Of a stretch of DNA of 64,000 nt, positions 29,301 through 49,203 are shown piece by piece. Source of the stretch: Aquamicrobium zhengzhouense (GTDB lineage Bacteria; Pseudomonadota; Alphaproteobacteria; Rhizobiales; Rhizobiaceae); the NCBI RefSeq assembly GCF_016124105.1, contig NZ_JADGMQ010000007.1, forward strand, positions 1-64,000, given 5' to 3'. Positions within the stretch are counted from its first letter, which is position 1. Every line of letters starts with the position of its first letter. The translations under genes were made by a program, and so were the position numbers. The notes below the pieces were generated by a model. That model was not told the DNA's origin. It saw only the letters and a list, made by a program, of their open reading frames with translations, and ran no database searches.

Positions 29301-30410
29301 GTGGCCAATTCCCTTTTCTCGCCGCTCACCCTGCGGTCGGTTGTCTTGCCGAACCGCATCGCCATGTCGCCGATGTGCCAGTACATGGCGCTTGATGGTG
29401 TCGCGAGCGCGTGGCACATGGCGCATCTCGGCGCGCGGGCAATCGGGGGCACCGGGCTCATTACTGTAGAGGCAACGGCGGTCGAGCCGGCTGGGCGCCT
29501 GACCCTCGGCTGCGTCGGTCTATGGAATGATGCGCAGGCGGATGCCTTGCGCCCGGTAACCGATTTCATCCGCAGTCAGGGCTCAGTCTCTGCCGTCCAG
29601 CTTGCACACTCCGGTCGAAAGGGAGCCCGCACGCGCCCTTGGGAAGAGGGAGGTCGTGCATTGCGCTCCGACGAAGGCGGATGGGAGCTACTGGCGCCAA
29701 GTGCAATTCCCTTCGGCGATTACGCCATGCCGAGGGAGATGAACGCGGAAGACCTTGAGGCGGTTGAGGCAGCGTTTGCCAATGCGGCTCGCCTTGCGCT
29801 GCGCGCCGGGTTCGACGCGATCAACCTGCATTTCGCCCACGGGTACCTTCTCCATTCATTTTTGTCTCCGCTGACGAACCAGCGCGGGGATGAATATGGC
29901 GGGTCCCTCGAAAACCGAGCCCGCTTTCCGCGCCGGATCGTGCGCGCCGTCCGATCTGCGTGGCCGGATCATCTTCCGATCATTGTTCGCCTGAGCTGCA
30001 GCGATTGGGCCGATGGCGGCTTCGAGATCGACGAGGCGATCACCGTCGCGCGGTGGTTTGCTGAAGACGGTGCAGATCTGATCGATTGCTCGAGCAGCGG
30101 TCTCGTCGATTGGGAAAAGGTGACAACGGGCCTGAATTATCAGGTTGAATTTGCCCGCCGGATCGGCGCTGAAACCGGTTTGCCGACCGGCGCCGTGGGG
30201 ATGATCGTCGATCCTGCCCAAGCCGAGAACATTATCAGCTCCGGCGACGCGGCTCTCGTTTTTCTGGGTCGCGCGCTTCTTGATGATCCCAACTGGGCGC
30301 ATCACGCAGCAGACACCCTGTCCACCCAGAACAGCTGGCCGTTGCCATATCGGCGCGCCGTCGGTCGCCTGAAGAATATCCGCGCTTTGCTGCCTGCAGA
30401 AGGTCACTGA
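29301..30410 (+). CDS. Old yellow enzyme, YqjM-type ene-reductase
   Basis: A 369-residue FMN-dependent TIM-barrel oxidoreductase that reduces activated C=C bonds using NAD(P)H. It has the YqjM-type cysteine C26 in SPMCQYM, substrate-binding H177 and H180 in NLHFAHGYLLH, and Y182. The start is GTG at 29301, with AGGAG ten bases upstream. It lies inside the TRAP operon, between the binding protein and DctQ, two bases before the latter, which ties it to metabolism of the imported compound, probably an enone or unsaturated acid. Confidence 0.9.
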   Translation: MANSLFSPLTLRSVVLPNRIAMSPMCQYMALDGVASAWHMAHLGARAIGGTGLITVEATAVEPAGRLTLGCVGLWNDAQADALRPVTDFIRSQGSVSAVQLAHSGRKGARTRPWEEGGRALRSDEGGWELLAPSAIPFGDYAMPREMNAEDLEAVEAAFANAARLALRAGFDAINLHFAHGYLLHSFLSPLTNQRGDEYGGSLENRARFPRRIVRAVRSAWPDHLPIIVRLSCSDWADGGFEIDEAITVARWFAEDGADLIDCSSSGLVDWEKVTTGLNYQVEFARRIGAETGLPTGAVGMIVDPAQAENIISSGDAALVFLGRALLDDPNWAHHAADTLSTQNSWPLPYRRAVGRLKNIRALLPAEGH

Positions 30411-30412
30411 GC

Positions 30413-30913
30413 ATGAACGCCACCGCCGCATTTTTGCGTGGCTTGACGAAATTTGAGAGCATCGTCGCGGTCACGGCACTTTTCATCTCCGCCGCCGCCC
30501 TTCTGGCGGACATTTTCGCCCGCGAGTTCTTCAAGGTCGGATTGTTCGGATCTTTCCGCGTTGCGGTCTACGCAACAGCTGCCAGCGCTCTGGTCGGTTT
30601 TTGCGTGTGCATTTCGCACGGGTCGCATCTGCGGATCAGCTTCCTCGACAACGCAGCACCCGCAGCGTTCCGCCCTCTCGTCCAGCGGATCGGGCACCTG
30701 ATCTCGTTCTCGATCTGCGTGTTTTTCGCATATTGGGCGATCTTCTACGTCCGCCAGACCGCAGAACTTGGCGAAACCGATCCGTCGCTGCAGGTGGTTG
30801 TATGGCCGATGCAGCTGTTCATGCCCTGGATGTTTATCTCCGGTGCCGTCCGCTACTTTGCCTATTTCATGTTTCCGATGATTGCGGCTCAAGACGAGGA
30901 GATCGTCCAATGA
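30413..30913 (+). CDS. TRAP transporter small membrane subunit (DctQ)
   Basis: A 166-residue inner-membrane protein with four predicted transmembrane segments (about 12-35, 50-70, 92-112, 128-150). It has the low-similarity pattern of DctQ subunits, including GSHLRISFL near residue 70. Position before DctM and after DctP supports the call. Its TGA overlaps the DctM ATG (ATGA). Confidence 0.88.
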   Translation: MNATAAFLRGLTKFESIVAVTALFISAAALLADIFAREFFKVGLFGSFRVAVYATAASALVGFCVCISHGSHLRISFLDNAAPAAFRPLVQRIGHLISFSICVFFAYWAIFYVRQTAELGETDPSLQVVVWPMQLFMPWMFISGAVRYFAYFMFPMIAAQDEEIVQ

Positions 30914-32172
30914 GCGGCATGCTGCTGATCCCGATTTTTCTTCTCCTGACCTTCTTCCGCCAGAACGTGATCCTGACCCTGGCGGTCATCATCGGTCTCG
31001 TTCACAGCTATATCGCCCGCAACAGTTCGGTCGAATATCTGGTCCAGGACCTGTGGTTCACGCTCGATCGCGAACTTCTGCTCTCGATCCCGATGTTCAT
31101 CTTCGCCGGGGTGATCATGTCGAGCGGTTCGATTTCCGCGCGGCTGGTCCGGCTGATGAAAGCGCTCACCTCTCCATTTCGTGGTGGTCTGGCGATCGCG
31201 ACCATCCTCGCCATGGCGGTGTTCTCTTCAATCTCCGGCTCGGCGATCGTGACGATGATGGCCGTGGGCACGCTGATGTATCCTGCCCTCATCCAGAGTG
31301 GATACAGCGTGCGGTTCACACTTGGCCTGCTCTGCACTGGGGGAACGCTCGGGGTTATCATTCCGCCCAGCATCCTGATGATCCTCTATGGACTGTCGAC
31401 TGATGTTTCGGTCACCAACATGTTCATGGCGGGCTGGGGGCCGGGCCTCCTGATGGTGCTGGTGCTCTGCGTCTATTCGGTGATCTGCAACCGCAGTGCC
31501 GAAACCAGCCCCTTCGACATTGCCGAGGTTTGGGCGGCGCTCAAACATGGAATTACCGCGCTTTTGATGCCGGTCATCCTCATGGGCGGTATCTATTCCG
31601 GTATTTTCACGGTTACCGAGGCAGCCGCTGTCTCGCTCCTCTATGCCCTGCTGATCGAGGTGGTGCTCTTTCGCAATCTCGGCGCGAAGGATGTGTTCCG
31701 GCTGGGCCTCGATACTGTGAAGCTGCTTGGCACCCTGATGCCGCTCGTTGCGTTTGCGGGCAGCCTCAACGTCATCCTCCAATATGAGGGCGTTCCTCAG
31801 GCATTGGTTGCCTGGACGCAGGAAACCTTCACCGCTGACTGGCAGATGTTGATCATGGTCAACCTCATGCTGCTGGTGGCAGGCGCGCTGATGGATGAAT
31901 CGTCCGCGATCATCATCCTCGCACCATTGCTTGCACCGCTGGGCCTCGCCTACGGGTACGACCCGGTCCATTTCGCGATCATGGTGATTGTCAATCTCCA
32001 GATCGGTTATGTGATGCCGCCCGTCGCACTCAGCGTCATCGTGGCGACGAGCGTGTTCCGTCAGACTTTCCTGACGGTCAGCCGCGCTGTCCTCCCTTTT
32101 GTGGCGCTGATGTTGATGGTGCTGTTGATCACCATCATGGTGCCCCAGCTCAGCCTGATGTTCATCCGATGA
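30910..32172 (+). CDS. TRAP transporter large membrane subunit (DctM)
   Basis: A 420-residue permease with about 12 transmembrane segments. Typical DctM signatures include MFIFAGVIMSSG, SGSAIVTMMAVGTLMYPAL, LGVIIPPSILMILYG and NLQIGYVMPPVALSV. Translation starts at 30910, overlapping the DctQ stop by four bases; the longer open frame to 30601 is a frame overlap within dctQ. It carries out sodium- or proton-driven uptake with the DctP and DctQ partners. Confidence 0.93.
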   Translation: MSGMLLIPIFLLLTFFRQNVILTLAVIIGLVHSYIARNSSVEYLVQDLWFTLDRELLLSIPMFIFAGVIMSSGSISARLVRLMKALTSPFRGGLAIATILAMAVFSSISGSAIVTMMAVGTLMYPALIQSGYSVRFTLGLLCTGGTLGVIIPPSILMILYGLSTDVSVTNMFMAGWGPGLLMVLVLCVYSVICNRSAETSPFDIAEVWAALKHGITALLMPVILMGGIYSGIFTVTEAAAVSLLYALLIEVVLFRNLGAKDVFRLGLDTVKLLGTLMPLVAFAGSLNVILQYEGVPQALVAWTQETFTADWQMLIMVNLMLLVAGALMDESSAIIILAPLLAPLGLAYGYDPVHFAIMVIVNLQIGYVMPPVALSVIVATSVFRQTFLTVSRAVLPFVALMLMVLLITIMVPQLSLMFIR

Positions 32173-32185
32173 TTGGAGGTGCCCG

Positions 32186-32680
32186 ATGACGACTTCGGAT
32201 GAACGCCCTCCTTCGGCCGAGAAGTCGAGGAAGGCGGCGGGCGAGGTTAACCCGCTCGACCGTATCGTCGGTTTTCAGCTTCGCCGCGCGCAGCTGAAAA
32301 CTTTCAACGAACTGATCAGGCTGTTCGACAAACTGGATCTGAAGCCGCCGCAATTTGCCGTGCTGAAGGTCCTGGAAACCCATCCGGGGATCAACCAGAC
32401 CCGCGCCGCGAAGATGCTCGCGATCAAGCGCACCAATTTCGTCACGCTGGTCGACGGGCTTGAACAGCGTGGGCTGGCCGAGCGGCGTGTCTCCGCAAAA
32501 GACAGGCGCGGACGTCCTTTGTTTTTGACCGAAGCCGGCACGAAGCTGATGGCCAAGGCTGGCTCAATCCAGGCAAAACACGAGCGCGATCTGATGCACC
32601 GGCTGGGAGGGGCAGAAGAGCTCGAAACGTTCCTGAGACTGCTGCATCGGCTGATCGCCGGAACGAATGCTGATGAATAA
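32186..32680 (+). CDS. MarR-family transcriptional regulator
   Basis: A 164-residue winged-helix regulator. DNA-contact elements are GINQTRAAKMLAIKRTNFVT (residues about 67-86) and the wing VSAKDRRGRPLFLTEAG. It lies 13 bases after dctM and 19 before a SnoaL-like gene, so it belongs to the operon. The two CACAATATG-centred palindromes at the operon promoter are its likely targets; binding would be relieved by the imported substrate or a metabolite. Confidence 0.88.
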   Translation: MTTSDERPPSAEKSRKAAGEVNPLDRIVGFQLRRAQLKTFNELIRLFDKLDLKPPQFAVLKVLETHPGINQTRAAKMLAIKRTNFVTLVDGLEQRGLAERRVSAKDRRGRPLFLTEAGTKLMAKAGSIQAKHERDLMHRLGGAEELETFLRLLHRLIAGTNADE

Positions 32681-32699
32681 TTGTGGAGGAGAGTAGCAA

Positions 32700-33224
32700 A
32701 TGCGGCCGATGAGTTCGGACATTCCTGAGATTCAATATTTGCTGGACAGGCAGGCGATCCTCGACTGCGTCAACAAATATGCGCGGGCCATCGATCGTCA
32801 TGATGTCGATCTGATGATGGAAGTCTATCATGAGGATGCGCTCGACGAGCACGGTCACTTCCGGGGCAATCCGATCCCGTTCGCCGAGTGGGCCAACGAC
32901 TTCCATGCCAAGGGTTTCGCCGCGCACACCCACAACATCACCACGCATAATTGCGAAATCAACGGTGATGAGGCGCATGCCGAATCCTACTGCCTCTATG
33001 TGCTGCGCCGTCGTGAACCTGCCCAGGTCATTCTTGGCGGCGGGCGATATATGGACCGGCTGGAAAAGCGCGATGGCGTGTGGCGCATTTCTCTTCGCAA
33101 GCTGTATATCGACTGGCGCGCCGAGGCCGACGCAACGATCTTCCTGACACCGAACGGCTATCCCGAAGGAGCGCGCGACCGCACGGATCCTTCCTACGAT
33201 CGTCCGCTCAAGCCGTCTGAATAA
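32700..33224 (+). CDS. SnoaL-like/NTF2-fold protein
   Basis: A 174-residue protein of the SnoaL-like cone-fold superfamily (PF13577 type): IQYLLDRQAILDCVNKYARA, RHDVDLMMEVYHEDA and a later HTHNITTHNCEINGDEAHAE. In this group Asp/His pairs act in dehydration, isomerisation or hydroxylation of small cyclic compounds; here DRHD near residue 33 and the HTHN cluster near 80 are candidates. GGAGGAGAG lies before the ATG. It ends the TRAP/ene-reductase operon. Catalytic role is inferred only from family and neighbours. Confidence 0.75.
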   Translation: MRPMSSDIPEIQYLLDRQAILDCVNKYARAIDRHDVDLMMEVYHEDALDEHGHFRGNPIPFAEWANDFHAKGFAAHTHNITTHNCEINGDEAHAESYCLYVLRRREPAQVILGGGRYMDRLEKRDGVWRISLRKLYIDWRAEADATIFLTPNGYPEGARDRTDPSYDRPLKPSE

Positions 33225-33305: not shown

Positions 33306-34307
33306 TTACTGTAGGCCCATCAACTGATAGATCTTTTCGGACGCCGCCATGGCGTCAGCTGGTTCGATGTTGACGATCTGCGGCATCTCGCGGGTGTTCT
33401 CGATGCCTTCGATCGGCGCGAAGCCATCGAAATTATTGATCGTCTGCGCTTCCCTGGTCATCAGGAAGGCGACGAAAAGCTTGGCTGCGTCGGCATGCGG
33501 TGCCTTGGCGACAAGGCTGGCGACGTTGTTGGAGGAGATTGACGGCTCCGGGAAGCTTTCGCCGAGCGGCGCGCCATTGGCGGCAAGGCCGGTGACGACC
33601 TGGTGGATGCCCGGTGCGTAGATCGCCTGTGCGCCAGCAGCAACCTGCTGAATGCCCGGAACCGCGCTTGGCGAATAGGTCGCGTGGGTGCCGAGCTTTT
33701 CCAGGAACTCGTCACCGTAAAGGTCGTGCAGCATCTTGTAGAACTGGTTCGAGGTCACGCTTGAGCGTGGGTCGGTCAGGATGACCTGGCCCTCGAATTC
33801 CGGATCGTTCAGCTGCTCCCAGCTCGTCAGGCCTTCCGGCACCAAATCGGTGTTCCAGACCAGCGAGTAGGGGTTGTAACCGATGGTGATTGTGCCTTCG
33901 GACTTGGCTTCTTCCGGCCACTGCGCATAGCCCGGCACGTCTTCCACCTTTGAGAACAGACCTTTGGCGAAGAGGTCGTCATGGAAGGCGCGGTCGGTCG
34001 AGTAATAGACGTCAGCGATGGTGTTGTCCGTGTCGTTCTCGGCCATGAAGCGCTGTGCGAGCGCGGACGAGGACTGACGCTGGATGTCGACATTGATGCC
34101 GTGGGCAGCGGTGAAGGCCGAGGAGAGCTTCTCCATCAGCGCCGGGTCAATATTGGTGTAGACGGTCAGCGAACCGTCTGCCTTCGCGGCTTCCACGAGT
34201 TCGGCCGGTATCTCGGCCTGCGCTCCAACCAGCGAAGCCGACAACGCCAGCGCGGCAGCCGAGACCAGCATGGTCAGGCGTGATTTGATCTTTGCAGTTT
34301 CAGTCAT
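33306..34307 (-). CDS. Extracellular solute-binding protein, Fbp-like family
   Basis: A 333-residue periplasmic binding protein with a signal peptide ending near LVGAQA (about residue 31). The body starts GSLTVYTNIDPALMEKLSSA and has ADVYYSTDRAFHDDL and YNPYSLVWNTDLVPEG, as in family 1 proteins of the ferric/phosphonate group. No adjacent tyrosine pair for iron is seen. The ATG at 34307 has GGGAGG seven bases upstream. It is last in an ATPase-permease-binding protein operon divergent from a CoA-transferase operon, suggesting an organic acid substrate. Confidence 0.85.
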   Translation of the reverse strand: MTETAKIKSRLTMLVSAAALALSASLVGAQAEIPAELVEAAKADGSLTVYTNIDPALMEKLSSAFTAAHGINVDIQRQSSSALAQRFMAENDTDNTIADVYYSTDRAFHDDLFAKGLFSKVEDVPGYAQWPEEAKSEGTITIGYNPYSLVWNTDLVPEGLTSWEQLNDPEFEGQVILTDPRSSVTSNQFYKMLHDLYGDEFLEKLGTHATYSPSAVPGIQQVAAGAQAIYAPGIHQVVTGLAANGAPLGESFPEPSISSNNVASLVAKAPHADAAKLFVAFLMTREAQTINNFDGFAPIEGIENTREMPQIVNIEPADAMAASEKIYQLMGLQ

Positions 34308-34351
34308 TGCATTCCTCCCGTTAAACTTTGCAGGCGGTATTCCAATCTGGT

Positions 34352-36079
34352 TCACGACGTCGTCACGCGCTGGCTGCGGCGGGTGACATAGAGCATGAGG
34401 CCGACCAGCGACGTCGAAATCGCAGTGACCACGAGCGCCAATGCGGCGACTTGCGGGAAATTGCCGAAATTCCACAAATCGAGCAGGACGCGGCCAATGA
34501 CCGGATTGTGCGTGCCCGACAGGAACGCCGAGGCGGTCACTTCGCCAACGGTGTGAACGAAGACCATGATCCACCCGGCGACGAGGCCAGGCATGGCCAG
34601 CGGCAGCGAAATCCTGAACAGGGTGCGCAGGTCAGACGCCTTGGCGACACGCGATGCTTCCGACAATTCGCCACCGATAGAGGCTGCGGCAGAGGCGGCA
34701 GCGCGCGCGGCATAGCTGAGTGTCATGACGATATAGGCCAGCAGCAGGATCGTCGTCGTACCGTAGATGCGCAGCGGCTCACGGCTGAAGGCGAGGATAA
34801 ACGCAACGCCAATCACCGTGTGCGGGATTGTTGCGGGCAATCCCGTCAGGATATCGGCCAGCTTGCGCGCCTTGCCATTGCGGGCAAAGTGCAGAGCAAA
34901 CGTGCCGGTCACCAGCATGTTGAAGGAGGCGACAATGAAGCCGAGCGTCACGCTGTTGATCAGTGCGCTCACCGTCTGGCGGTTTTCAAACAGGACGAAG
35001 TTGAAATTCGCGAGCGTCAGGGTCGAGAAGTTGACAGCTGGCGTCCAGAACGGCTGCAGCGAAACGAGAAGCAGGCCAAGGATCGGCAGCACCGCGGTCG
35101 CGAGCAGATAGAAGACCGCCAGCGCATAGGCGAACCAGCGCAATTTGCCGAGACGCACGGGCGTCGCACGGAAACCCTTGCCCGAAATTGCAGCGTTGCG
35201 GCCGGGGCGGGCGACCATGTTTTGCACGACCAGCAGGACCTGAACGAGGACGAGGAGGCCGATCGACAGGGTGATCGCGGGTCCAGTCTGGGCCGGATAG
35301 GCCTGAAGCAGGCGGAAGATATAGACCGAGATCACGTCAATCCGCGCGCCTGCGCCGAGGACCGCCGGAACCGAGAAGAGGCTGAGGCCGGAGATGACGC
35401 CAAGCAGCACCGAAGCGGCGAGCGCCGGACGGATCGCCGGCAAGGTGATGCGCATCATGGTCTTGAGGGGGCCGGCGCCGCCCGTGCGCGAGGCTTCTTC
35501 CATTGCCGGATCGACACGCTGAAGCGCTGCCGAGACGACGAGGAAGACGTAAGGCACGGTGTAGAGGCTGGTGATGATCACCAGACCCCACATCGAATAG
35601 ATATTGAACGGCCCCGTGCGCATGGTGATCCCGAAGACATCGAGGACGTTGCGCAGCGCGAAATTGGCAAGTCCGGCGCGCGGGTCGAGCAGAACCGCCC
35701 AGCCAATCACGCCGGCGACGGGCGGCACGATCAGTGCGCAAAGCGGCAGAAGCTGCCCCATGAAGCCAAGGCTGGCATCGCTGCGCTCATTGATCCAGGC
35801 AAGAAACGAGCCGATCAAAAGCGCGATCGTGGTTGCGCCGAAAACGACGATCAGCGTGTTGAGAATGACAGTCGGTACGGTGCGCGATAGCGGCCCATCC
35901 AGGCGCGAATGGAAACTCGCGACGATGTTGTCGTACTCATAGACGATCGCGAGACCGAGCGGATAGATGATCAGGAGCGCGATGAGCGCGAGGACCAGCC
36001 AGAGCGCGAGTGAAAAGGGCGTCAGACCTGATCTGGTCCACCAGCTGAAGCCGGTCCCGGCTTTCGGGTTGACGCTCAT
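34352..36079 (-). CDS. ABC transporter permease, two fused domains (Fbp type)
   Basis: A 575-residue membrane protein with two permease halves on one chain and about 12 transmembrane segments. EAA loops read MEEASRTGGAGPLKTMMRIT and LSEASRVAKASDLRTLFRIS. The start MSVNPKAG at 36079 follows the ATPase stop by one base (TGAGATG) and has AAGG upstream; an open frame eight codons longer exists within the ATPase gene. It has the same architecture as the permease at 16953-18632 but is clearly diverged from it. Confidence 0.9.
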   Translation of the reverse strand: MSVNPKAGTGFSWWTRSGLTPFSLALWLVLALIALLIIYPLGLAIVYEYDNIVASFHSRLDGPLSRTVPTVILNTLIVVFGATTIALLIGSFLAWINERSDASLGFMGQLLPLCALIVPPVAGVIGWAVLLDPRAGLANFALRNVLDVFGITMRTGPFNIYSMWGLVIITSLYTVPYVFLVVSAALQRVDPAMEEASRTGGAGPLKTMMRITLPAIRPALAASVLLGVISGLSLFSVPAVLGAGARIDVISVYIFRLLQAYPAQTGPAITLSIGLLVLVQVLLVVQNMVARPGRNAAISGKGFRATPVRLGKLRWFAYALAVFYLLATAVLPILGLLLVSLQPFWTPAVNFSTLTLANFNFVLFENRQTVSALINSVTLGFIVASFNMLVTGTFALHFARNGKARKLADILTGLPATIPHTVIGVAFILAFSREPLRIYGTTTILLLAYIVMTLSYAARAAASAAASIGGELSEASRVAKASDLRTLFRISLPLAMPGLVAGWIMVFVHTVGEVTASAFLSGTHNPVIGRVLLDLWNFGNFPQVAALALVVTAISTSLVGLMLYVTRRSQRVTTS

Positions 36080-36080
36080 C

Positions 36081-37181
36081 TCAAGCACCTTGCGCGAAGA
36101 CATGGACGCGGTGCGAGGCGCAGGTCACGGTCAGCGTGCCATCAGAATCTGCCGTCACGGGTGCCTGCGTCGTAATCAGCAACTCGCCGCCATCGGTTTC
36201 AAGGAAGTGCTGACGAACTGCGCCGAGATAAAGCGAGCGGGTGAGGCGGCCCGTTATGAGGTTTTCGCTCTCGCCGAGAGCGGCAACGTTGCAGTGCTCC
36301 GGGCGGATCATGACGGCAACTTTCTGGCCGACGGACATGGATGCGGGGAAGTTGGCGGATTCGATCTCGCCAAAGGCAGTCTTCACCAGCAATTTGGCTC
36401 CTACTGAGAGGACAATGCCCTCAAGCTCATTGGCCGAGCCGACGAAGTCCGCAACATAGCGCGATGCCGGATGATCATAGATTTGTTCAGGTGCCCCGAT
36501 CTGCGCGACCGTGCCGACATCCATGACGGCAATGCGGTCGGCAAGTGCCAGTGCTTCGACCTGATCATGGGTCACGTAGACAGCGGCAAAGCCGATCTGC
36601 GTCTGCAGCGACAGCAATTCGAGGCGGAGCCGTTCACGCACCTTGGCGTCAAGGTTTGACAGCGGCTCGTCGAAGAGAACGAGGCCGTCGCCGGAAACAA
36701 TCGCGCGGGCGAGGGCGACGCGCTGCTGCTGGCCACCGGAAAGCTGGCCGGGATAGGCGGCAGAAAACTTGCCAAGGCCGACCTTTTCCAGCGCTTCCTG
36801 TGCGAGCGGTGCAGCCTCACGCTGCGACTTTCCCGAATTGCGGATCGGATAGATGACGTTTTCCAGAACGCTGAGGTGCGGCCACAGCGCATAGGACTGG
36901 AAAACCATCGACAGGTTGCGCTTTTCCGGCGGCACATAGATGCCGTCCCTGGATGAAAACACCACCTTGCCGTCGATGAGAATTTCGCCGGAATCAGGCT
37001 CTTCCAGACCCGCGATGCAACGCAGGAGCGTCGTCTTTCCGCAGCCGCTTGGCCCCAGAAGAACGACAAATTCGGCGGGATCAATATCCAGAGAAACGTT
37101 GTCCAGCGCCACGTGCGAGCCACGACGGGTCCGATAGACCTTCGTCAGATTGCGCACAGATACGCGTGGTGCAGCTGTCAT
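36081..37181 (-). CDS. ABC transporter ATP-binding protein (Fbp/Pot type)
   Basis: A 366-residue ATPase with Walker [10 protein letters not shown], signature [14 protein letters not shown], Walker [13 protein letters not shown] and switch region [11 protein letters not shown], then a C-terminal TOBE domain from about residue 250. It is first in the operon, followed directly by the permease. Its start lies 149 bases from the divergent CoA-transferase start, so both operons can share regulation. Confidence 0.92.
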
Positions 37182-37288: not shown

Positions 37289-37330
37289 TCGTCGACTGCA
37301 ACATCGGCGATTGAAGGCTGGAGGAAATTC

Positions 37331-38530
37331 ATGGCGGGTGCGATGCAGGGCATGAAGGTGCTCGATATGACCCACGTTATGGCGGGGCCATTCTGCACGC
37401 GGCAGCTGGTGCTGCTTGGCGCGGATGTCATCAAGATCGAGCGGCCGGGTGAAGGCGACGTGATGCGCTATTACGGCCACGACCCGCGCTTTGGCCGCAA
37501 CTCGCCGAACTTTGTCGGCTACAATGCTGGCAAGAAATCCGTTGCGCTCGACTGGACCACGGAACTTGGCGCTGAAGCGTTGCGCCGGCTTGTCGCCGAA
37601 GCGGACGTCATTGTCGAAAACTTTCGCCCAGGTGTTCTCCAGGCGCGTGGCTTTGGCTACGAGGCCTGCAAGGCGATCAAGCCGGACATCATCTACTGCT
37701 CGATCTCAGGCTACGGGCAGGAATCCATCCTTCGCGACAACCCGGCCTATGATCACATCGCGCAGGCGATGTCCGGGCTGATGTCGCTGCAGGGCACCGA
37801 GCAGGACCCGCCGATGAAGGTCGGCTTCCCGCTGGTCGACACCTTCTCCGGTCACATGGCCGCATTCGCGATCGTCTCAGCTCTGCTGCGCCGCGCGCAG
37901 ACCGGCGAAGGCCAGCGTCTTGACGTGTCGATGCTGGATGCCTCGATGGTGCTCATGTCGGCGATGATCCTGAAATACAACGCGACCGGCGACGTTCCAA
38001 AGCGCGTTGGCAACAAGGGGTTCAGCCTGTCGGCAACCGCCGACATGTTCCCGACCAAGGATCGTCCGATCTCGATCGGTGCCAACACCGACAAGCAATT
38101 TGCAGCCCTGTGCAAGGTGCTGGGCGTTGAAGAACTTGTCGCTGACCCGCGCTATCAGGATGCGTCAGGCCGCTGGGAGCATGCCGATACGCTTCGCCCT
38201 GTCGTTTCGGCCAAGATCGCCGAATGGGAAGCCGAAGTTCTGGAGGTCGAGCTCAACAAGGCGAGCGTTCCGGCGGCAGTCGTTCGCGATCTCAAGGGCA
38301 TCGTCGCCCATCCGCACTTTGAGGGCCGCCCGACGTTCCAGTCGATCGACGTTCCGGCTTGGGGCCGTGAAATGAAGGTCCTGAACGGCGGCTTCATTGC
38401 CAATGAGGACACGCCGCAATCGACCGTTACGTCGCCGGACCTTGGGGAGCACACGGAAGAGGTCCTGCGCTCGCTCGGCTTCGAAGGTGAGAAGCTCGAG
38501 AGCCTGATCGCGGGAGCTCAACTGTCATGA
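37331..38530 (+). CDS. Class III CoA-transferase (CaiB/BaiF family)
   Basis: A 399-residue CoA-transferase that moves CoA between carboxylic acids. The N-terminus MKVLDMTHVMAGPFCTRQL, IKIERPGEGD and VENFRPGVLQARGFGYE are family hallmarks, and the catalytic Asp is probably D141 in NPAYDHIAQAMSG. GGAGGAAAT lies before the ATG at 37331; the open frame upstream to 37049 runs antisense to the ATPase gene. It starts an operon with a dehydratase-like pair and so likely makes their acyl-CoA substrate. The stop overlaps the next ATG (ATGA). Confidence 0.9.
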   Translation: MAGAMQGMKVLDMTHVMAGPFCTRQLVLLGADVIKIERPGEGDVMRYYGHDPRFGRNSPNFVGYNAGKKSVALDWTTELGAEALRRLVAEADVIVENFRPGVLQARGFGYEACKAIKPDIIYCSISGYGQESILRDNPAYDHIAQAMSGLMSLQGTEQDPPMKVGFPLVDTFSGHMAAFAIVSALLRRAQTGEGQRLDVSMLDASMVLMSAMILKYNATGDVPKRVGNKGFSLSATADMFPTKDRPISIGANTDKQFAALCKVLGVEELVADPRYQDASGRWEHADTLRPVVSAKIAEWEAEVLEVELNKASVPAAVVRDLKGIVAHPHFEGRPTFQSIDVPAWGREMKVLNGGFIANEDTPQSTVTSPDLGEHTEEVLRSLGFEGEKLESLIAGAQLS

Positions 38531-39660
38531 GCCTCGAATCTGCAATGCAGCGGCTAGATGCTGCCTGGGAAAACCCGGAAGGAACCGCGCGCAAGATGCA
38601 TGCGGATGGCTGCAAGGTCGTCGGCTTCCTTGGCGCAACCGTACCGGTCGAATTGATCGCGGCCTCTGGTGCCTATCCGTTTCGCCTCAAGGGATCCGCA
38701 CCCGGCGTCGATTACGGAGCAACCGATCTTTCCGACACGCTGATGGAGCCGGTGCGCGAAACCTATCTGCGTCAGCTTTTTGACCGGATGCTCAAGGGCG
38801 ATCTGGAGTGGATTGACCTTCTCGTCATCCCGCGCACCTCCGAGGGGCTGCTGCAGCTCTACTATCTGATCGACTATGCACGCAGCCTCGACATCGGGCA
38901 GAGGATGCCGAGGGTATATCTTCTCGATCTCCTGCAAACCCAGCACGACTACAGCATTCGCTATAACCGTAAGGTGCTTTCGGATTTCGCGGAGCGACTT
39001 GGCGAAATCACCGGCACATTGCCGGATGAGGCAGCGATCACGCTGGAAATTGCCGCGACAAATGAAACGCGCCGGGCATTTCGCGATCTTTGCACCTCCG
39101 GAAAACTCACCGGAATCCAGCGCCTGAAGCTTTCCGCCTTTGGCCAGCACGAGCCACGCGCCGAGTTCAAGGCGCTGATTGGCGAGTTTCAGAAGGCCGA
39201 GCCGAAGGCCGTTTCAAAGGCTATCGCTCTCTCCGGCTCGACCCAGGAGAATGCAGCCGTCTACGACGCATTCGCTGCCCATGGCGTCGACATCGCGATC
39301 GAAGATCACGATTGGGGCGCAGCCATTTACGAGCACGATGCAAGTCTCGAAGATGACCCGATTGCAGCGCTCGAAGCACGCTATCGCGTTCACGGATTAA
39401 GCTTGCGCCAGTTTGTGCGCCGGCAGCCTGAGCTTGGCGTCGATGGCAAGCCAACTCAAATCAGCGCCGTCGCCTTCTTCTTTGAGGAAAATGACGACAC
39501 GCTCGGCTGGGAATATCCCGACGAGAAAACACGTCTTGAACGCGTCAATTTGAAGAGCATCGTATTGCGCGGCCCGGTCGGCAGCGAGGCATGCCAAAAG
39601 GCGATTTCAGATTTTGCCGCACAGCTTCCGGTCAGAGCAGGGGGAACGGCCAATGACTGA
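38527..39660 (+). CDS. 2-hydroxyacyl-CoA dehydratase-family protein, subunit 1
   Basis: A 377-residue protein with the fold of HgdB/BcrB-type subunits: VVGFLGATVPVELIAASGAY aligns with the family start (GYxxxYVPEELIxAAG). However, the usual cluster-binding cysteines are not where expected: the CPxxKS region reads DLSDTLMEPVRE and the TCDG-like motif reads IPRTSEGLLQLY. Only three cysteines occur in the whole chain. Canonical members carry an oxygen-sensitive [4Fe-4S] cluster and need an ATP-dependent activase; none is encoded here. Function is unknown but linked to CoA chemistry by the flanking genes. Confidence 0.75.
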   Translation: MSLESAMQRLDAAWENPEGTARKMHADGCKVVGFLGATVPVELIAASGAYPFRLKGSAPGVDYGATDLSDTLMEPVRETYLRQLFDRMLKGDLEWIDLLVIPRTSEGLLQLYYLIDYARSLDIGQRMPRVYLLDLLQTQHDYSIRYNRKVLSDFAERLGEITGTLPDEAAITLEIAATNETRRAFRDLCTSGKLTGIQRLKLSAFGQHEPRAEFKALIGEFQKAEPKAVSKAIALSGSTQENAAVYDAFAAHGVDIAIEDHDWGAAIYEHDASLEDDPIAALEARYRVHGLSLRQFVRRQPELGVDGKPTQISAVAFFFEENDDTLGWEYPDEKTRLERVNLKSIVLRGPVGSEACQKAISDFAAQLPVRAGGTAND

Positions 39661-40942
39661 CATGGTCTTTCAATCGGTCGCTGATGAGCCGCTGGCAACC
39701 ACAGCGCTCGCCAAGGAAAAGCAGAAGAACTGGTTCAAGGATTTCCGCACCCGCTCGATGGAGCAGGGCGAGCCCTATGTGATCGCGGCGGCGGTCAGCC
39801 CACACGAGATTTTCCATACGATGGACGTGCCGGTGGTGACCAACACCTGGTATTCGTCGATCATCTCCGCCAAGCGCCAGTCGCCCTACTATTTCGACCT
39901 CATGGAAAAACTCGGCTTTCACGGCGACTTGCCGCGATATCTGAGCCTGCCCATGATGACGACGCTCGACAATGATCCAGAGCGCGCACCCTATGGCGGG
40001 CTGCCGAAGCCAGCGCTGATCCTTGACCGGCTACGCGGTGACTACGCCCAGCGCATCTCGACGAAATGGGCAGCGGCCTTCGACACCGAAACCTTCTTCC
40101 TTGACGTTCCGGCACAAAAGAAGCTGATCCCGAATTGGTGGGAACTGGCGCAGTGCGACTGGGAAACGCTCTATGAAAGCCATCGCCTCGACTATCAGGT
40201 CGAGCAGATCAAGGCGCTGATCGAGGTCGCAGAACGCACCTGCGGCCGCCGCTTCGACATGGACCATTTTGAAGGCGAGATGCACCGCATCAACCAGGCT
40301 GGCGAGAATGTCGCCCGCGCCCGCGATGCGATTGCTTCGGCTGAAAAGTGCCCGGTCAGCCTGCCCGACCAGCTCACCAATGTGATGGCCGCAACCTGGA
40401 ACCGTGGTTCCCAATGGTCGGTCGATCACACGGCTGCCTATGCCGGCGAGATCGAAGCGCGTGTCGCCAACAAGCAGGCCATCTGCCCTGGCGAGAAGAC
40501 CCGTCTTTTGTGGCTCAACACCGGTCTGTGGTTCAACACCGGCTTCTACCGAGCCTTTGAAGAGAGCCATAACGCAACCTTCGTCTGGTCAATGTATTCG
40601 AACTATTTCTCGGACGGCTACCGGAAATATTTTGACGGCGATCCACTGCGGGCGCTTGCCGCACGTTCGATCTCGATGAACGAGCAATTGCACCTGCCGC
40701 CATGGATGGCAGGCTGGATCTTGAAGCAGGCAGAAGAGTTCCGCGCTTCTGGGGCCGTCATGCTGACACCGATCGGCGATCGGCTGTCATCCTATGGCAC
40801 CCGTGCCTGCATCGACATGCTGGAGCGTGCTGGCCTTCCGGTGCTTGAACTCAGCGCCAGCATGGTTGATGCCCGATTGTGGGACAATGACGCGATGATC
40901 GCCAGGGTTGGCGACTTCATCGATCAACGCGTAAAGGCCTGA
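39653..40942 (+). CDS. 2-hydroxyacyl-CoA dehydratase-family protein, subunit 2
   Basis: A 429-residue partner that overlaps subunit 1 by eight bases. It retains family features: VVTNTWYSSIISAKRQSPYY, YGGLPKPALIL, STKWAAAF and FFLDVPAQK. The positions where canonical alpha subunits have cluster cysteines read GDLPRYLS and RLRGDYAQ instead. It has other cysteines (ERTCGRR, AEKCPVS, AICPGEK), so an altered cluster cannot be excluded. The ATG at 39653 is internal to the longer open frame at 39614 and follows GGGGGAAC. Likely a heterodimer with subunit 1. Confidence 0.75.
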   Translation: MTDMVFQSVADEPLATTALAKEKQKNWFKDFRTRSMEQGEPYVIAAAVSPHEIFHTMDVPVVTNTWYSSIISAKRQSPYYFDLMEKLGFHGDLPRYLSLPMMTTLDNDPERAPYGGLPKPALILDRLRGDYAQRISTKWAAAFDTETFFLDVPAQKKLIPNWWELAQCDWETLYESHRLDYQVEQIKALIEVAERTCGRRFDMDHFEGEMHRINQAGENVARARDAIASAEKCPVSLPDQLTNVMAATWNRGSQWSVDHTAAYAGEIEARVANKQAICPGEKTRLLWLNTGLWFNTGFYRAFEESHNATFVWSMYSNYFSDGYRKYFDGDPLRALAARSISMNEQLHLPPWMAGWILKQAEEFRASGAVMLTPIGDRLSSYGTRACIDMLERAGLPVLELSASMVDARLWDNDAMIARVGDFIDQRVKA

Positions 40943-40965
40943 CCTGACAGGCAAGGAGAATGAAG

Positions 40966-41949
40966 ATGGCGATGATGCAAGCTATCGAGATCAGCGAAGC
41001 TGGTGGCCCCGAAGTTCTGCGCCTTTGCGAGCGCCCGGTGCCGCAGGCTGCTGCTGGCGAGGTTCTGATCAAAGTTGCAGCCGCGGGCCTTAACGGCGCG
41101 GACCTTGCGCAGCGCCGCGGCGTCTACCCGCCGCCGAAGGGCGCATCGGACATTCCGGGTCTTGAAGTGTCCGGTACCATCGAAGCGCTCGGCGAAGGCG
41201 TCGATGGTTTCGCCGTTGGCGACCGTGTCGTCGCGCTTCTAGCTGGCGGCGGCTATGCGCAATATTGCAATGTCCCCGCAAGCCAGGTTCTGCCGCTTCC
41301 CGACCATCTGAGCTTCGTTGAGGGCGCAGGCCTGATGGAGACGATCGTCACGGTTTGGGCGAACGTTTTCGACATTGGGGGACTGCGTGAGGGCGAAACC
41401 CTGCTCGTGCACGGCGGCACCAGCGGCATCGGCACCACGGCGATCCAGCTGGCCAAGGCGTTTGGTGCGCGCGTTGCAGCCACCAGCGGCAGCGAAGGGA
41501 AGGCAGAACTTTGCCGCCAGATCGGAGCCGAAACCGCGATCAACTATAAAACCGAGGAGTTCGCCTCAATCGTGCGCGAACGTCACGGTGGCGCAAATGT
41601 TGTGCTCGACATCATTGGCGGGCCGTATCTTGAAGGCAACATCCGCGCCATGGCACCCAAGGGCCGGCTGGTCTTCATTGCCTTCAATCAGGGACGCATG
41701 GGCCAGCTCGACATTGCCCGCGTCATGATGAATGGGCTGACGGTGACGGGGTCAACACTGCGCAGCCGTCCGTTGGCGGAAAAGGCACGCCTCGTGTCGG
41801 AAGTTCGCGAGAAGGTCTGGCCGCTGGTTGAATCCGGATCGTTCAAGCCGGTCATCGATCAGGTTTTCCCGCTTGCCGAAGCCACTGCCGCGCATGTGCG
41901 GATGGAAAGCGGCTCGCACATGGGTAAAATCATCCTCACGCTCGATTAG
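40966..41949 (+). CDS. Zinc-independent MDR oxidoreductase (quinone reductase-like)
   Basis: A 327-residue medium-chain dehydrogenase/reductase of the zeta-crystallin/QOR group. LNGADLAQRRGVYPPP and GLEVSGTIEALGEGV form the GroES-like half; the Rossmann motif LLVHGGTSGIGTTAIQLAK lies near residue 145. No zinc ligands are apparent. Such enzymes reduce quinones or enoyl compounds with NADPH. The ATG at 40966 is preferred because AAGGAG is seven bases upstream; the ATG at 40960 is only one base from it. Operon position suggests it reduces a product of the dehydratase-like pair. Confidence 0.88.
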   Translation: MAMMQAIEISEAGGPEVLRLCERPVPQAAAGEVLIKVAAAGLNGADLAQRRGVYPPPKGASDIPGLEVSGTIEALGEGVDGFAVGDRVVALLAGGGYAQYCNVPASQVLPLPDHLSFVEGAGLMETIVTVWANVFDIGGLREGETLLVHGGTSGIGTTAIQLAKAFGARVAATSGSEGKAELCRQIGAETAINYKTEEFASIVRERHGGANVVLDIIGGPYLEGNIRAMAPKGRLVFIAFNQGRMGQLDIARVMMNGLTVTGSTLRSRPLAEKARLVSEVREKVWPLVESGSFKPVIDQVFPLAEATAAHVRMESGSHMGKIILTLD

Positions 41950-41964: not shown

Positions 41965-42762
41965 ATGGCCAGCGAGATTGATGAGGATGAAGGCGGTGCG
42001 CGCCAGTACAAGGTCAACGTGCTTGACCGCGCCGTGTCGATCCTCGATGCGCTCTCGCGCTATGGCCCAAGCCTGACGCAGACCGAACTGGCAAAGCTGA
42101 CCGGTCTGCATGTCAGCACCTGCATGCGCCTTCTGATGAATTTGCGCCACCACGGCTTCGTCACCAAGGACGAAGACAGTGGGCGCTATCGTCTCGGCTA
42201 TCGCCTGGTGGCGCTGGCCGAGGATGCGCGCGGCAATGCCGGCCTCGTCGAAGTCGCCCGTCCGGTCATGCGCGACCTGTGCCGCGCGTTCAATGAGACC
42301 GTGGTGCTGAGCGTCACCTCCGGCGATTTTCGCGTCGATCTGGAGCAGGTCGTCGGGCGGCAGTCGATCCGCCGCGTCGTTGCGCTTGGCGTAGAAAAGC
42401 CGCTCTATGCCGGCGCTGCCAGCCGGCTTCTTCTGGCAGGGTTTTCGGACGTGGAGTTCGAGAGCTATTTGAAGCGGGTTCAGCTCGAGCCATTGGCTCC
42501 GCACACGATCACGGAACCTGAAGCGTTGCGAAGCTCCATTGAGGACATCCGCAAGAACGGTTTCTCCGAGGGGAGCCAGGAACAATATGCCGATAGCGGC
42601 TACGGCATCGTCGCGCCGGTGAAGGGGCTGCGTGGTGAGACCATCGCGGTTCTTGGCGTCTCCGTTCCTCGCTTTCGGTTCACGGACGAACTGCGCGAAC
42701 AGCTTCTACCCGCTGTGATTTCGGCTGCCGACGATGTGTCGCGGCGCATGCGCGGAAAATAG
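41965..42762 (+). CDS. IclR-family transcriptional regulator
   Basis: A 265-residue regulator. The winged helix (LTQTELAKLTGLHVSTCMRL, residues about 37-56) precedes an IclR effector domain (FNETVVLSVTSGDFRVDLEQ through GYGIVAPVKGLRGETIAVLG). GGGGAGG lies six bases before the ATG. As the last gene of the CoA-transferase operon it is the likely regulator of that operon and perhaps of the divergent ABC transporter. It is not closely similar to the IclR protein at 24561. Confidence 0.9.
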   Translation: MASEIDEDEGGARQYKVNVLDRAVSILDALSRYGPSLTQTELAKLTGLHVSTCMRLLMNLRHHGFVTKDEDSGRYRLGYRLVALAEDARGNAGLVEVARPVMRDLCRAFNETVVLSVTSGDFRVDLEQVVGRQSIRRVVALGVEKPLYAGAASRLLLAGFSDVEFESYLKRVQLEPLAPHTITEPEALRSSIEDIRKNGFSEGSQEQYADSGYGIVAPVKGLRGETIAVLGVSVPRFRFTDELREQLLPAVISAADDVSRRMRGK

Positions 42763-45167: not shown

Positions 45168-46283
45168 TCAATCCCAGCTGAGCGCGCCGCCACTCTGATA
45201 TTCGATGACCCTTGTTTCGAAGAAGTTCTTTTCCTTCTTCAAATCCATCGCTTCCGACATCCACGGGAACGGGTTCTCGACATCTGCAAATACCGGCTTC
45301 AGGCCAAGCTGCGCGCAGCGGCGATTGGCGATGAAGTGCATATATTGTTCGCACAGCGCAGCATTGAGCCCAAGGAAGCCGCGCGGCATCGTATCGCGCC
45401 CGTAAGCCGCCTCAAGCTCCGCCGCTTCGAGGATCATGCCGCGAATTTCATCCTGAAATTCCGGGGTCCAGAGGTCAGGGTTCTCGATCTTGATCTGGTT
45501 GATGACATCGATGCCGAAATTGAGGTGGATCGATTCATCGCGCAAGATGTACTGGTACTGTTCGGCGATGCCGACCATCTTGTTGCGGCGGCCAAGCGAG
45601 AGGATCTGAGCGAAGCCGGTGTAGAACCACATCCCTTCAAAGATGACGTAGAACGCGACCAGATCGCGCATGAACGCCTGATCCGCCTCGGGCGTGCCTG
45701 TCTTGAAATCCGGGTCGTCGAGGTTCTGGGTGTATTTCAACGCCCACGCCGCCTTGTCGGTGATCGACGGCACCTCCCGGTACATGTTGAACAACTCGCC
45801 CTCGTCCAGAGCGAGGCTTTCGACGATATATTGGAAGGTATGCGTGTGGATCGCTTCTTCGAATGCCTGGCGCAGCAAATATTGGCGGCATTCCGGGTTC
45901 GTCAGATGGCGATAGATCGCCAGAACGATGTTGTTGGCGACCAAAGATTCCGAAGCGGCGAAGAAGCCGAGATTGCGCTTGAGCATCCGGCGTTCATCTT
46001 CGGTCAGCCCGTCCTTTGATTTCCACAAGGCAATGTCGGCCTGCATCGACACTTCGGTCGGCATCCAGTGATTGTTGCAACCGGCGAGATATTTTTCCCA
46101 GGCCCAGCGGTATTTCAGGGGCAATAGCTGGTTCACGTCCGCGCGGGCATTGATCATCCGCTTGTCGTCAACCGAAACGCGGGCACCGCCGCGTTCGATT
46201 TCACCAAGTCCGGTGGCGTCAGCTTCGCCGCTGTCGGTCGAAGCCGCCAGTGAAGACGGCTTGGTTTCTGACCAATCGAGCAT
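45168..46283 (-). CDS. nrdB: Ribonucleotide reductase beta subunit, class Ic
   Basis: A 371-residue ferritin-like R2 protein. Metal ligands E112, E143, H146, E216, E250 and H253 fit exactly the spacing of Chlamydia R2 (E89, E120, H123, E193, E227, H230). The position of the radical tyrosine is F150 in [11 protein letters not shown], as in Chlamydia F127, which defines class Ic and a Mn/Fe cofactor. The ATG at 46283 has GGAG seven bases upstream; the longer frame to 46433 overlaps nrdA. It follows nrdA by 43 bases and shares its B12-controlled leader. Confidence 0.93.
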
Positions 46284-46326
46284 GTTCTTACTCCAGATTT
46301 CGATGTGAGGTGCGTTTTTGGCAGGC

Positions 46327-49203
46327 CTATTGGCAGGCCTCGCAATCCGGATCGTCGATGGAACAGGCCTTTGCCCAGGCGCCGTTCTGATCAATCGTGA
46401 TCGAAGACGCGGCAACAGACGCCGACACCGCATTCAGCTTGCCATCGGTGCCTTTCAGTGTCGATTTTTCGACATGCGTCGCGGAGCGCGAGCGCAGATA
46501 GTAGGTGGTCTTCAGGCCCTTGTTCCACGCCAGCCGGTACAGCTCATCGAGCTTCTTGCCGCTCGGGTTGGCGATGTAGAGATTGAGTGACTGCGATTGG
46601 TCGATCCATTTCTGCCGACGGGATGCGGCCTCGATCAGCCAGCTCGATTCCAGTTCGAATGCGGTTGCGTAGAGCGCTTTCAAATCGTCCGGAATGCGAT
46701 CGATCTGGCCGACAGAACCATCAAAATATTTGAGGTCCGAGACCATCACCTCATCCCACAGACCGCGAGCTTTCAGGTCGTGAACCAGCTGGGCATTCAC
46801 CACGGTGAAGTCGCCGGACATGTTCGATTTGACGAAGAGGTTCTGATAGGCGGGCTCGATTGACTGCGAGACGCCGCAGATGTTGGAAATCGTCGCGGTT
46901 GGGGCAATCGCCATCGTGTTGGAGTTGCGCATGCCAACGGTTATGACGCGGCTGCGCAACGCCTCCCAGTCGAGCGTCATGCTTTCATCCATGTCGACGC
47001 TTGGACGTGCCTCTTTCATCAGCCGGATCGAGTCGATCGGCAGGATGCCCTGCGACCACAGCGACCCATCAAAGCTGCCATAGCGACCGCGCTCGGCGGC
47101 AAGATCTACCGATGCTGAAATCGCGTGGTAGCTGATCGCTTCCATTGACAGATCGGCAAATTCCACCGCAGCTGCCGAGGCATAAGGGATCCGCAGTTTC
47201 TGCAGCGCGTCCTGGAAGCCCATGAGCCCAAGGCCGACCGGGCGATGACGCAAATTCGACGCGCGTGCTTCCGGGATGGTGTAGAAATTGATGTCAACGA
47301 CATTATCCAGCATCCGCATCGCGGTTTTCACCGTCGCGGCAAGCCGGTCGAAGTCGAGACCGTTCTCGCCCAGATGATTGACGAGATTGACGGAACCGAG
47401 ATTGCAGACCGCGACCTCGTCCTTCGAGGTGTTGAGCGTGATCTCGGTGCACAGATTTGACGAGTGGACGACGCCGACATGGCCTTGGGGCGAGCGGATG
47501 TTGCACGGATCCTTGAAGGTAATCCACGGATGTCCGGTCTCGAACAGCATGGTCAGCATCTTGCGCCACAGATCGAGTGCCCGAACGGTGCGGTGCACAC
47601 GCATCTCGCCACGCTCGGCCTTGGCCTCATAGGCCTCGTAAGCTGCGCGAAATTTCGCGCCGTAGAGGTCGTGCAGATCAGGCGTTTCATCTGGAGAGAA
47701 CAGCGTCCAGTCGCTGTCCATTGAAACCCGCTCCATGAAGAGGTCCGGAACCCAGTTGGCCGTGTTCATGTCATGGGTGCGGCGCCGGTCATCGCCGGTG
47801 TTCTTGCGAAGATCGAGGAATTCCTCGATGTCGATGTGCCAGGTCTCGAGATAGGCGCACACCGCACCCTTGCGCTTGCCACCCTGATTGACCGCAATCG
47901 CGGTGTCATTGGCGACCTTCAGGAACGGCACCACGCCCTGGCTCTCGCCATTGGTGCCTTTGATATGCGCACCAAGACCGCGAACCGGCGTCCAGTCATT
48001 GCCAAGGCCGCCGGAGTATTTCGCCAGAAGCGCGTTGTCCTTGATGCCCTTGAAGATCGCCTCGAGATCATCGCCAATGGTGGTCAGGAAGCAGGATGAC
48101 AGCTGCGGCCGGGTCGTTCCCGAGTTGAACAGTGTCGGCGTGGAGGCCATGAAATCGAACGAGGACAAAAGATTGTAGAACTCGATCGCGCGGTTCTCGC
48201 GGTCGATCTCGCGCAGAGCCAGTCCCATCGCCACCCGCATGAAGAATGCCTGCGGCAGCTCGAACCGCTTGCCGTCGCGATGCAGGAAGTAGCGATCATA
48301 GAGGGTCTGCAAGCCGAGATACTGGAAATTGAGATCGCGCTCCGGCTTGAGAGCCGCGCTTATCCGTTGCAGGTCGAAGCGCTCCAGCTCCGAATCGATC
48401 AGGCCTGCCTTGATGCCGGTCGCGATGAACTGAGGAAAATAGCTGGCGTAACGCGATGCCATCTCCGACTGCGTCGCCTGTTCGGCACGACCGGAAACGA
48501 GGCTCAGTGCCTCACGGCGCAGTTTGTCCATCAGGAGACGAGCGGCAACGAACGCATAGTTCGGCTCCTGCTCGATCAGCGTGCGCGCAGCCATGATCGG
48601 TGCCAGTGACAGCTCGTCCTGCGTGATGCCATCGTAGAGGTTTCTGCGGGTCTCTGTCAGGATGGGCGACGCCGAAACCGCGTCCAGCCCATTGCATGCT
48701 TCTTCAACGATACGCGTCAGCCGCGTTTCATCGAGCGCAACAAGCTCTCCGTCTTCCGAAGTCATTTTCAATGCGGGGGCTGACGGAGCGGTTGCAAATT
48801 CCTTCTCCGCCGTACGTTCACGCGCACGCTCCTCGCGATAAAGCACGTATGCCCGCGCAATCTTGTGGTGTTCGCCGCGCATCAGCGCGAGTTCCACCTG
48901 ATCCTGCACGTCTTCGATGTGGAACAGGCGGCCTTCGCCAACGCGGCGGGTAAGCGCCGAAACGACTTGTCCGGTCAGTTCTTCGACTGCCTCGTGTACC
49001 CGGCGGGAACCGGCGGCAGTTGACCCTTCCACGGCCAGAAAGGCCTTGGTCAGCGCGATGCTGATTTTGCGCGCGTCAAAGGGCGTGACGGCACCATTGC
49101 GGCGCAAAAGCTGATAGCCCGGAGCCGCGGTTGCTTCTGACGAAATTCCAAGTGGAACGAAGCTCGCTCCGTCCGTGCGGTGGGTTGCAGTCGCCGACAT
49201 CAT
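46327..49203 (-). CDS. nrdA: Ribonucleotide reductase alpha subunit, class I
   Basis: A 958-residue catalytic subunit that reduces ribonucleoside diphosphates. It begins with an ATP-cone ([20 protein letters not shown]) and a second cone-like region near residues 150-235. The active site includes [16 protein letters not shown] and [13 protein letters not shown], giving the redox cysteines and the Cys-Glu pair. A C-terminal [12 protein letters not shown] carries the thiol-exchange cysteines. Start is ATG 49203 (or the adjacent ATG 49200); the frame to 49314 crosses the riboswitch. The weak GGGG ribosome-binding site is held in a hairpin. Confidence 0.94.

Follow-up and report, generated by a model that had tools for sequence, protein, structure and literature searches.

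The first 64,000 nucleotides of contig NZ_JADGMQ010000007.1 of Aquamicrobium zhengzhouense (assembly GCF_016124105.1), the whole stretch analyzed and called the window here, encode two proteins, A and B, that belong to the fold superfamily of the benzoyl-coenzyme A (CoA) reductases and 2-hydroxyacyl-CoA dehydratases (BCR/HAD) and stand outside the radical dehydratases. By alignment, all six positions at which this family carries cysteine ligands of its iron-sulfur clusters hold other residues in the pair. We put roughly even weight on a reading in which A and B descend from radical dehydratases and act as a redox-neutral acyl-CoA lyase or isomerase; it draws on the residues conserved among their relatives. 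What appears to be new here is a clade with intermediates, in which the active-site Glu seems to have been lost and two putative thioester-binding Tyr residues kept. The two genes are as follows.

38527..39660, plus strand: subunit A, 377 amino acids (aa), homologue of the relay (beta) subunit HadC/BzdN
39653..40942, plus strand: subunit B, 429 aa, ATG at 39653, homologue of the active-site (alpha) subunit BzdO/MbdO/HadB

Both proteins are true HGD-D homologues. The HGD-D profile PF06050 scores 65 bits for A and 125 bits for B against a cut-off of 28.4; A matches the profiles of BzdN (5.9e-42) and HadC (1.3e-37), and B those of MbdO (3.9e-18), BzdO (6.5e-18), and HadB (5e-11). Single-chain AlphaFold models, with the window protein and ten relatives as input, gave a mean predicted confidence (pLDDT) of 87.8 for A, for which the best Foldseek matches were HadC (3o3m_D; TM score, 0.80) and BzdN (8s02_B; TM score, 0.81). 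For B, the pLDDT was 69.1, falling below 50 at residues 64-84 and 86-132, and the best match was BzdO (8s02_C; TM score, 0.71). At an E value of ≤0.001, Foldseek returned 19 and 20 PDB matches for the two subunits, with BCR/HAD members in all top ranks. Profile and structure matches therefore put A in the place of the electron-relay subunit and B in that of the active-site subunit. An earlier sequence-only reading of this DNA, made from its letters and open reading frames (ORFs), had assigned the pair to this family, which these searches confirm, and the four strings it quoted as cysteine-free ligand sites are present, IPRTSEGL and DLSDTLMEP in A and GDLPRYLS and RLRGDYAQ in B.

Ligand columns were defined by alignment to HadC/BzdN, HadB/MbdO, and canonical bacterial pairs. 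The resulting table for B holds 30 clade rows and 11 canonical rows, and that for A holds 25 clade rows and 9 canonical rows, with the A partners L110-L114, found by tblastn, standing outside it (L numbers denote loci and G numbers genomes). The clade rows are related, some of them nearly identical (L060, L130), and counts over them are of nonindependent events. The six columns read as follows in the window.

38758..38760, plus strand: A E78, first ligand Cys column; Cys in 0/25 clade rows and 9/9 canonical rows
38839..38841, plus strand: A S105, second ligand Cys column; Cys in 1/25 clade rows (a fused form) and 9/9 canonical rows
39493..39495, plus strand: A D323, third ligand Cys column; Asp in 25/25 clade rows, Cys in 9/9 canonical rows
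39932..39934, plus strand: B P94, first ligand Cys column (BzdO Cys95); Cys in 10/30 clade rows and 11/11 canonical rows
40037..40039, plus strand: B G129, second ligand Cys column (BzdO Cys128); Cys in 10/30 clade rows and 11/11 canonical rows
40778..40780, plus strand: B D376, third ligand Cys column (BzdO Cys380); Cys in 1/30 clade rows and 11/11 canonical rows

Window B thus has none of the three ligand cysteines that mark the active-site subunit of a radical dehydratase or class I benzoyl-CoA reductase, and window A has none of those that mark the relay subunit; across the 30 clade rows of B, no cysteine is invariant at all. Two alignment routes (MAFFT with the canonical rows and profiles against PDB chains) concur at five of the six columns, which rules out misaligned motifs; for the second column of B, the profile alignment to HadB is ambiguous, and the assignment comes from MAFFT and from the relatives that bear cysteines. 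Chance or a frame error is ruled out by conservation across the 30 rows, and the cysteine losses are no sequencing accident, because ten named relatives, 61-93% identical to window B, share them. The by-eye alignment behind the earlier reading is therefore borne out in its main point, and the outcome that would have counted against it, cysteines at every ligand position, did not arise. One of its strings has to be shifted: the first column of A is E78 in PVRETYL, a few residues past DLSDTLMEP, and is free of cysteine there as well.

The radical enzymes of this family depend on an ATP-dependent activase, which the sequence-only reading reported missing from the window. Profile searches found none above cut-off in the whole assembly, which is 99.98% complete: the best match to TIGR00241 scored 14.6 bits (cut-off, 125.4) and that to PF01869 scored 21.2 bits (cut-off, 31.5). 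An activase encoded elsewhere in the organism's own genome, by which radical dehydratases and class I benzoyl-CoA reductases could be recognized, was thus searched for and not found above cut-off. Nor is one co-conserved elsewhere in the clade, as the activase was absent from 23/23 clade genomes (11 plus 12 more, with one repeat and one copy of G276 dropped), completeness being established for a part of the relatives that does not include those reached via named loci. It was present in 17/17 genomes with canonical pairs (16 plus G838), where canonical refers to profile scores, with aligned cysteine columns for part of the set; genome G011, with one weak HGD-D match below cut-off and no activase, was counted in neither group. 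As a control, the same search yields matches in known genomes, Escherichia coli among others. Genera usually grown in air can have canonical pairs too, as shown by Rhizobium leguminosarum, Rhodococcus ruber, and Sphingopyxis macrogoltabida, whose plasmids carry such pairs with an annotated activase nearby. The window organism encodes four heme-copper-type oxidases. Together, the missing ligand cysteines, the missing activase, and these four oxidases make the known type of radical chemistry very unlikely for the window pair.

A classical radical dehydratase with an unrecognized electron donor would fit the family fold and the family III CoA-transferase and reductase encoded nearby, a setting that resembles the reductive branch of amino-acid fermentation. 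It would have to work in a pair with residues for neither cluster, no active-site Glu, and no activase, and we regard it as nearly refuted.

Further residues of B bear on what replaced that chemistry. PMC11574389 describes the active site of HadBC as its alpha cluster, which has three Cys ligands and an open iron; the relay of electrons falls to the beta cluster. For BzdO, PMC11971306 gives Cys95, Cys128, and Cys380 as cluster ligands, places Glu65 at the iron-bound water, and has the thioester oxygen held by Tyr97, Tyr298, and Gln274. The corresponding and neighboring features of window B are the following.

39845..39847, plus strand: B T65, catalytic Glu column; Glu in 0/30 clade rows (Q 17, T 8, P 3, A 2) and 11/11 canonical rows
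39938..39940, plus strand: B Y96, equivalent of BzdO Tyr97 by C-x-Y spacing; Tyr in 30/30 clade rows and 10/11 canonical rows
40595..40597, plus strand: B Y315, equivalent of BzdO Tyr298 by profile alignment; Tyr in 30/30 clade rows and 9/11 canonical rows
40040..40042, plus strand: B D130, beside the second ligand column; Asp in 30/30 clade rows and 0/11 canonical rows
39803..39817, plus strand: B H51-E-I-F-H55, HExxH-like; both His in 27/30 clade rows and in 0/3 fused forms

The active-site Glu65 of class I benzoyl-CoA reductases corresponds to T65 in the window on a mapping drawn from the HadB/MbdO alignments and spacing, and the adjacent W66 is a new invariant of the clade. With both tyrosines kept and the ligands and the Glu lost, the thioester site therefore seems, as far as aligned residues can tell, to have been kept in clade B proteins and the electron chemistry removed. 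The sequence-only reading had proposed an oxygen-tolerant enzyme of new chemistry or a cluster bound by other residues. Its doubt about radical chemistry of a known kind stands; an oxygen-tolerant radical enzyme is less favored, as the combination of a lost active-site Glu and kept thioester-binding tyrosines argues for redox-neutral acyl-CoA chemistry.

The main rival is a metal bound at HExxH or at carboxylates, which is to say a non-cysteine metal center, either mono- or dinuclear at H51 and H55 with carboxylates or a cluster held by Asp, Glu, and His, that serves as a Lewis acid or a redox site. The HExxH motif arises from two His residues gained around a Glu that is common in the family, and it would make a candidate metal site in the 27/30 rows that have it. 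At the third ligand columns, B has Asp or Asn at position 376 and A has D323, E74 is found in 22/25 and E78 or D78 in 18/25 rows of A, and iron-sulfur proteins with non-cysteine ligands do exist, as PMC11574389 notes. However, the three fused forms lack both His residues, the 30 B rows share no invariant Cys, and a search of the open-access literature found no family member with a cluster that lacks all Cys ligands. We consider a metal center unlikely, though it is the alternative to be taken most seriously.

Substitution patterns speak to whether B works at all. Between the window and L010, the nonsynonymous rate (dN) was 0.046 for B, 0.315 for A, and 0.053-0.096 for six other operon genes, with synonymous divergence (dS) near saturation. 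In the other four pairs compared, A was again faster than B, though in L013/L014 by no more than about twofold. The median ratio of A to B distances was 1.89 within the clade (120 pairs, 16 loci) versus 1.18 among canonical pairs (78 pairs, 13 loci), and B retains 47 invariant columns in 30 diverse rows. From these rates and ratios it follows that B is a strongly constrained, working protein and that A is partly released from constraint and evolves faster. A noncatalytic CoA-binding pseudo-enzyme, acting as a sensor or stabilizer of the CoA-transferase, would account for the loss of the cluster ligands, the Glu column, and the constraint on A, yet the 47 invariant columns of B, and a dN equal to or below that of its enzyme neighbors, make such a role improbable.

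The redox-neutral reading gains from the intermediates. L035 (genome G012) has a B with Cys at all three columns, an A with none, and no activase, and a sphingomonad group of nine rows keeps two of the three B cysteines. Aconitase-type hydro-lyases use an open-site [4Fe-4S] cluster as a Lewis acid without redox and thereby offer an analogy for the three-Cys stage seen in L035; they differ in having an unrelated fold, and the window pair lacks the ligands. At three loci (G146, the second copy of G391, and G1160), A and B are fused into one protein; these fused forms (L054, L115, L132) are about 800-850 aa long, have no HExxH, and show a gap at the third ligand column. When the ligand columns were left out of the tree, all 30 clade rows fell on one side of a branch (support, 100/99), and the nine two-Cys rows formed one group (100/99). 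The best tree contains three changes of cysteine state, with two to three for the cysteine-free label under bootstrap, so that complete loss occurred two to three times provided that cysteines were only lost and never regained. The tree was flagged for long branches meeting.

Clade members were found in 4/387 genomes of the class, 3/297 of the order, 4/398 of the phylum (in a search at E ≤ 1e-20 weighted towards relatives), and 7/196 of the sphingomonad order (one copy counted), as well as in seven plasmid records; so far, the clade has been found in Alphaproteobacteria. The window genome holds a second pair of the same clade (L016, contig C2 108000-127000, pair at 8649-11056), likewise without ligand Cys, whose neighbors include several family III CoA-transferases, genes for tripartite ATP-independent periplasmic (TRAP) transporters, and a MarR-like gene.

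The genes around A and B in the window are the following.

about 37322..38530, plus strand: family III CoA-transferase, operon gene 1 (PF02515, 5.6e-114)
40960..41949, plus strand: PIG3-type quinone/enoyl-reductase-like oxidoreductase, QOR (TIGR02824, 459 bits; cut-off, 296.8)
41965..42762, plus strand: IclR-type regulator (PF01614 and PF09339 above cut-off)
36081..37181, minus strand: ATP-binding cassette (ABC) transporter ATPase, divergent from the operon (PF00005; position kept in relatives)
34352..36103, minus strand: ABC transporter permease (PF00528; position kept in relatives)
33306..34574, minus strand: extracellular solute-binding protein (PF13531, PF13416, PF13343; position kept in relatives); the listed ORF begins upstream of the likely true start

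The plus-strand operon runs CoA-transferase, A, B, QOR, IclR regulator, with the ATG of A overlapping the CoA-transferase stop and an 8-base overlap between A and the start of B; the ABC transporter genes (33306-37181) diverge from it. The same order is found in Nitratireductor, Chelativorans, a Rhodobacterales isolate, and genome G641 and is mostly kept in Devosia and on a Rhizobium plasmid. In 27/30 loci, A/B have a family III CoA-transferase no more than about 5 kb away; in L013, the distance is about 7 kb. All 13 members (13/13) of the sub-clade that includes the window have QOR next to A/B, and the remaining loci showed none; other sub-clades are marked by TRAP genes, CocE/NonD hydrolases, and CapA-like proteins. 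The CapA-like protein (PF09587) beside sphingomonad members (L105 4090-5223 and nine other loci) bears a weak likeness to the lasso-peptide Trp epimerase MslH, at 78.6 bits far below the cut-off of 700.

The tight linkage to CoA-transferases in those 27/30 loci would also suit an acyl-CoA thioesterase or an acyl-transfer partner of the CoA-transferase, and a two-Tyr site for the carbonyl oxygen fits nucleophilic attack on a thioester equally well. We nevertheless hold this to be quite unlikely, given that no candidate nucleophile is invariant, that an 800-aa two-gene complex is costly for hydrolysis, and that QOR and the downstream enzymes suggest further use of the CoA thioester.

In the redox-neutral scheme, A and B would form a heterodimer that has the BCR/HAD fold but has given up electron chemistry. 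Import of a carboxylic acid, as the ABC genes suggest, would be followed by its conversion into a CoA thioester by the family III CoA-transferase. Going by the alignment to BzdO, B may hold the thioester oxygen on Y96 and Y315 and carry out redox-neutral enolate-type chemistry. It would act either as an isomerase or as a lyase that removes or adds water or cleaves a C-C bond; D130 is a candidate for the acid or base, and A would be a structural partner. The relay and the activase would have been lost first, leaving a cluster site in B only, as in L035, which would then have been lost in turn. A fuller account, which we hold tentatively and at somewhat short of an even chance, is that of a previously unrecognized clade whose acyl-CoA lyase or isomerase, free of cluster and activase, was built stepwise for life in air. 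It would have passed through a three-Cys Lewis-acid stage (L035) before two or three lines lost the site completely, and D130 would have joined the two old tyrosines in a new catalytic core.

Several observations weigh against the redox-neutral reading. Removal of an alpha-hydroxyl is held, in PMC11574389, to need a radical route. Since the radical serves that very step, dehydration without a cluster is hard, and either the reaction differs or the substrate is activated; plain alpha,beta-dehydration of an unactivated 2-hydroxyacyl-CoA by A/B is unlikely. The BzdO Gln274 column is not kept in clade B rows, the B model, with its low-confidence segments, gives D130 and HExxH no reliable place in space, and HExxH in most B rows could mean a new metal. 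A appears to be no mere scaffold by default, because D323 and W328 are invariant in 25/25 clade rows. Its faster evolution is also not uniform: in L013/L014, the dN of A (0.197) is no higher than that of QOR (0.181), and in L105/L106, DctP is fast as well as A. The placement of L035 in the tree is weak (58/26), and no CoA-transferase was found in the fetched stretches of L014 and L015.

As to substrates, a p-hydroxycinnamoyl-CoA hydratase/lyase gene occurs in the fetched stretch of 4/29 loci (L013, L014, L052, L105; of these, NF006588 confirmed L013 and L105 alone), and 6/29 loci have aldehyde dehydrogenases that closely resemble one another. These genes hint at phenylpropanoid acids in some members, the window not among them. 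A phenyllactate-type dehydration, which they made attractive, was considered and not adopted; the window operon has no hydratase/lyase gene, and the alpha-hydroxyl problem remains.

Other genes of the window stand apart from the operon. A tannase/feruloyl-esterase family gene (PF07519, 43498-45110, plus strand) consists of two ORFs in different frames covering profile positions 1-136 and 185-490 and is a broken gene or an assembly error; its 322-aa C-terminal part has no homologue in the other fetched loci, which rules it out as an operon member. Upstream of the ABC genes, 28175-33224 (plus strand) encodes a TRAP solute-binding protein and permease, an old-yellow-enzyme-type oxidoreductase, a MarR-type regulator, and a SnoaL-like protein; four of these genes, including those for the oxidoreductase, the solute-binding protein, and the SnoaL-like protein, had no match above threshold in the other fetched loci. 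At 45168-49314 (minus strand), two ORFs look by eye like class I ribonucleotide reductase genes, one for the small subunit and one for the large.

Among known systems, the class I benzoyl-CoA reductases BzdNO (PDB 8s02) and MbdNO (9g87) share the fold and the subunit pairing, A being nearest to BzdN and B to BzdO/MbdO, and Tyr97 and Tyr298 are kept in B; A/B differ from them in lacking the double-cubane or [4Fe-4S] ligands, Glu65, and a BzdPQ-type activase in the genome. HadBC (PDB 3o3m/3o3n), the (R)-2-hydroxyisocaproyl-CoA dehydratase that works with the activase HadI, likewise has the fold of A/B, in which all six ligand Cys are replaced and the activase is absent. The family III CoA-transferase, which we take to be the likely partner of A/B, would be the counterpart of HadA. 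The double-cubane-cluster protein DCCP (PDB 6eno, 7yyl) has the fold as well but, as described in the discussion of PMC11971306, forms a homodimer, carries double-cubane clusters, and has an ATP-dependent reductase of its own, whereas A/B is a heterodimer without the ligands. The same discussion provides a precedent in the family for a turn from radical to nonradical chemistry, the 4-thiouridine-5'-monophosphate desulfidase TudS, a single-domain protein that still has a [4Fe-5S] cluster. The family members listed there all hold clusters, and TudS is the one that turned from radicals. Our search of the open-access literature, with subscription papers mostly outside it, found no description of a cluster-free family member.

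The one-electron chemistry of BCR/HAD enzymes is among the hardest known, and their sensitivity to oxygen is a textbook example. Where clade B-type genes have a feature in the plasmid records that were examined, they are named "2-hydroxyacyl-CoA dehydratase family protein," a name that implies a radical reaction that clade B proteins can hardly perform. The question of the substrate is tractable in aerobes that can be cultured, such as Sphingomonas, Novosphingobium, and Nitratireductor. If the redox-neutral reading is true, the clade would show how a radical enzyme gets rebuilt for redox-neutral chemistry, with the intermediates still alive.

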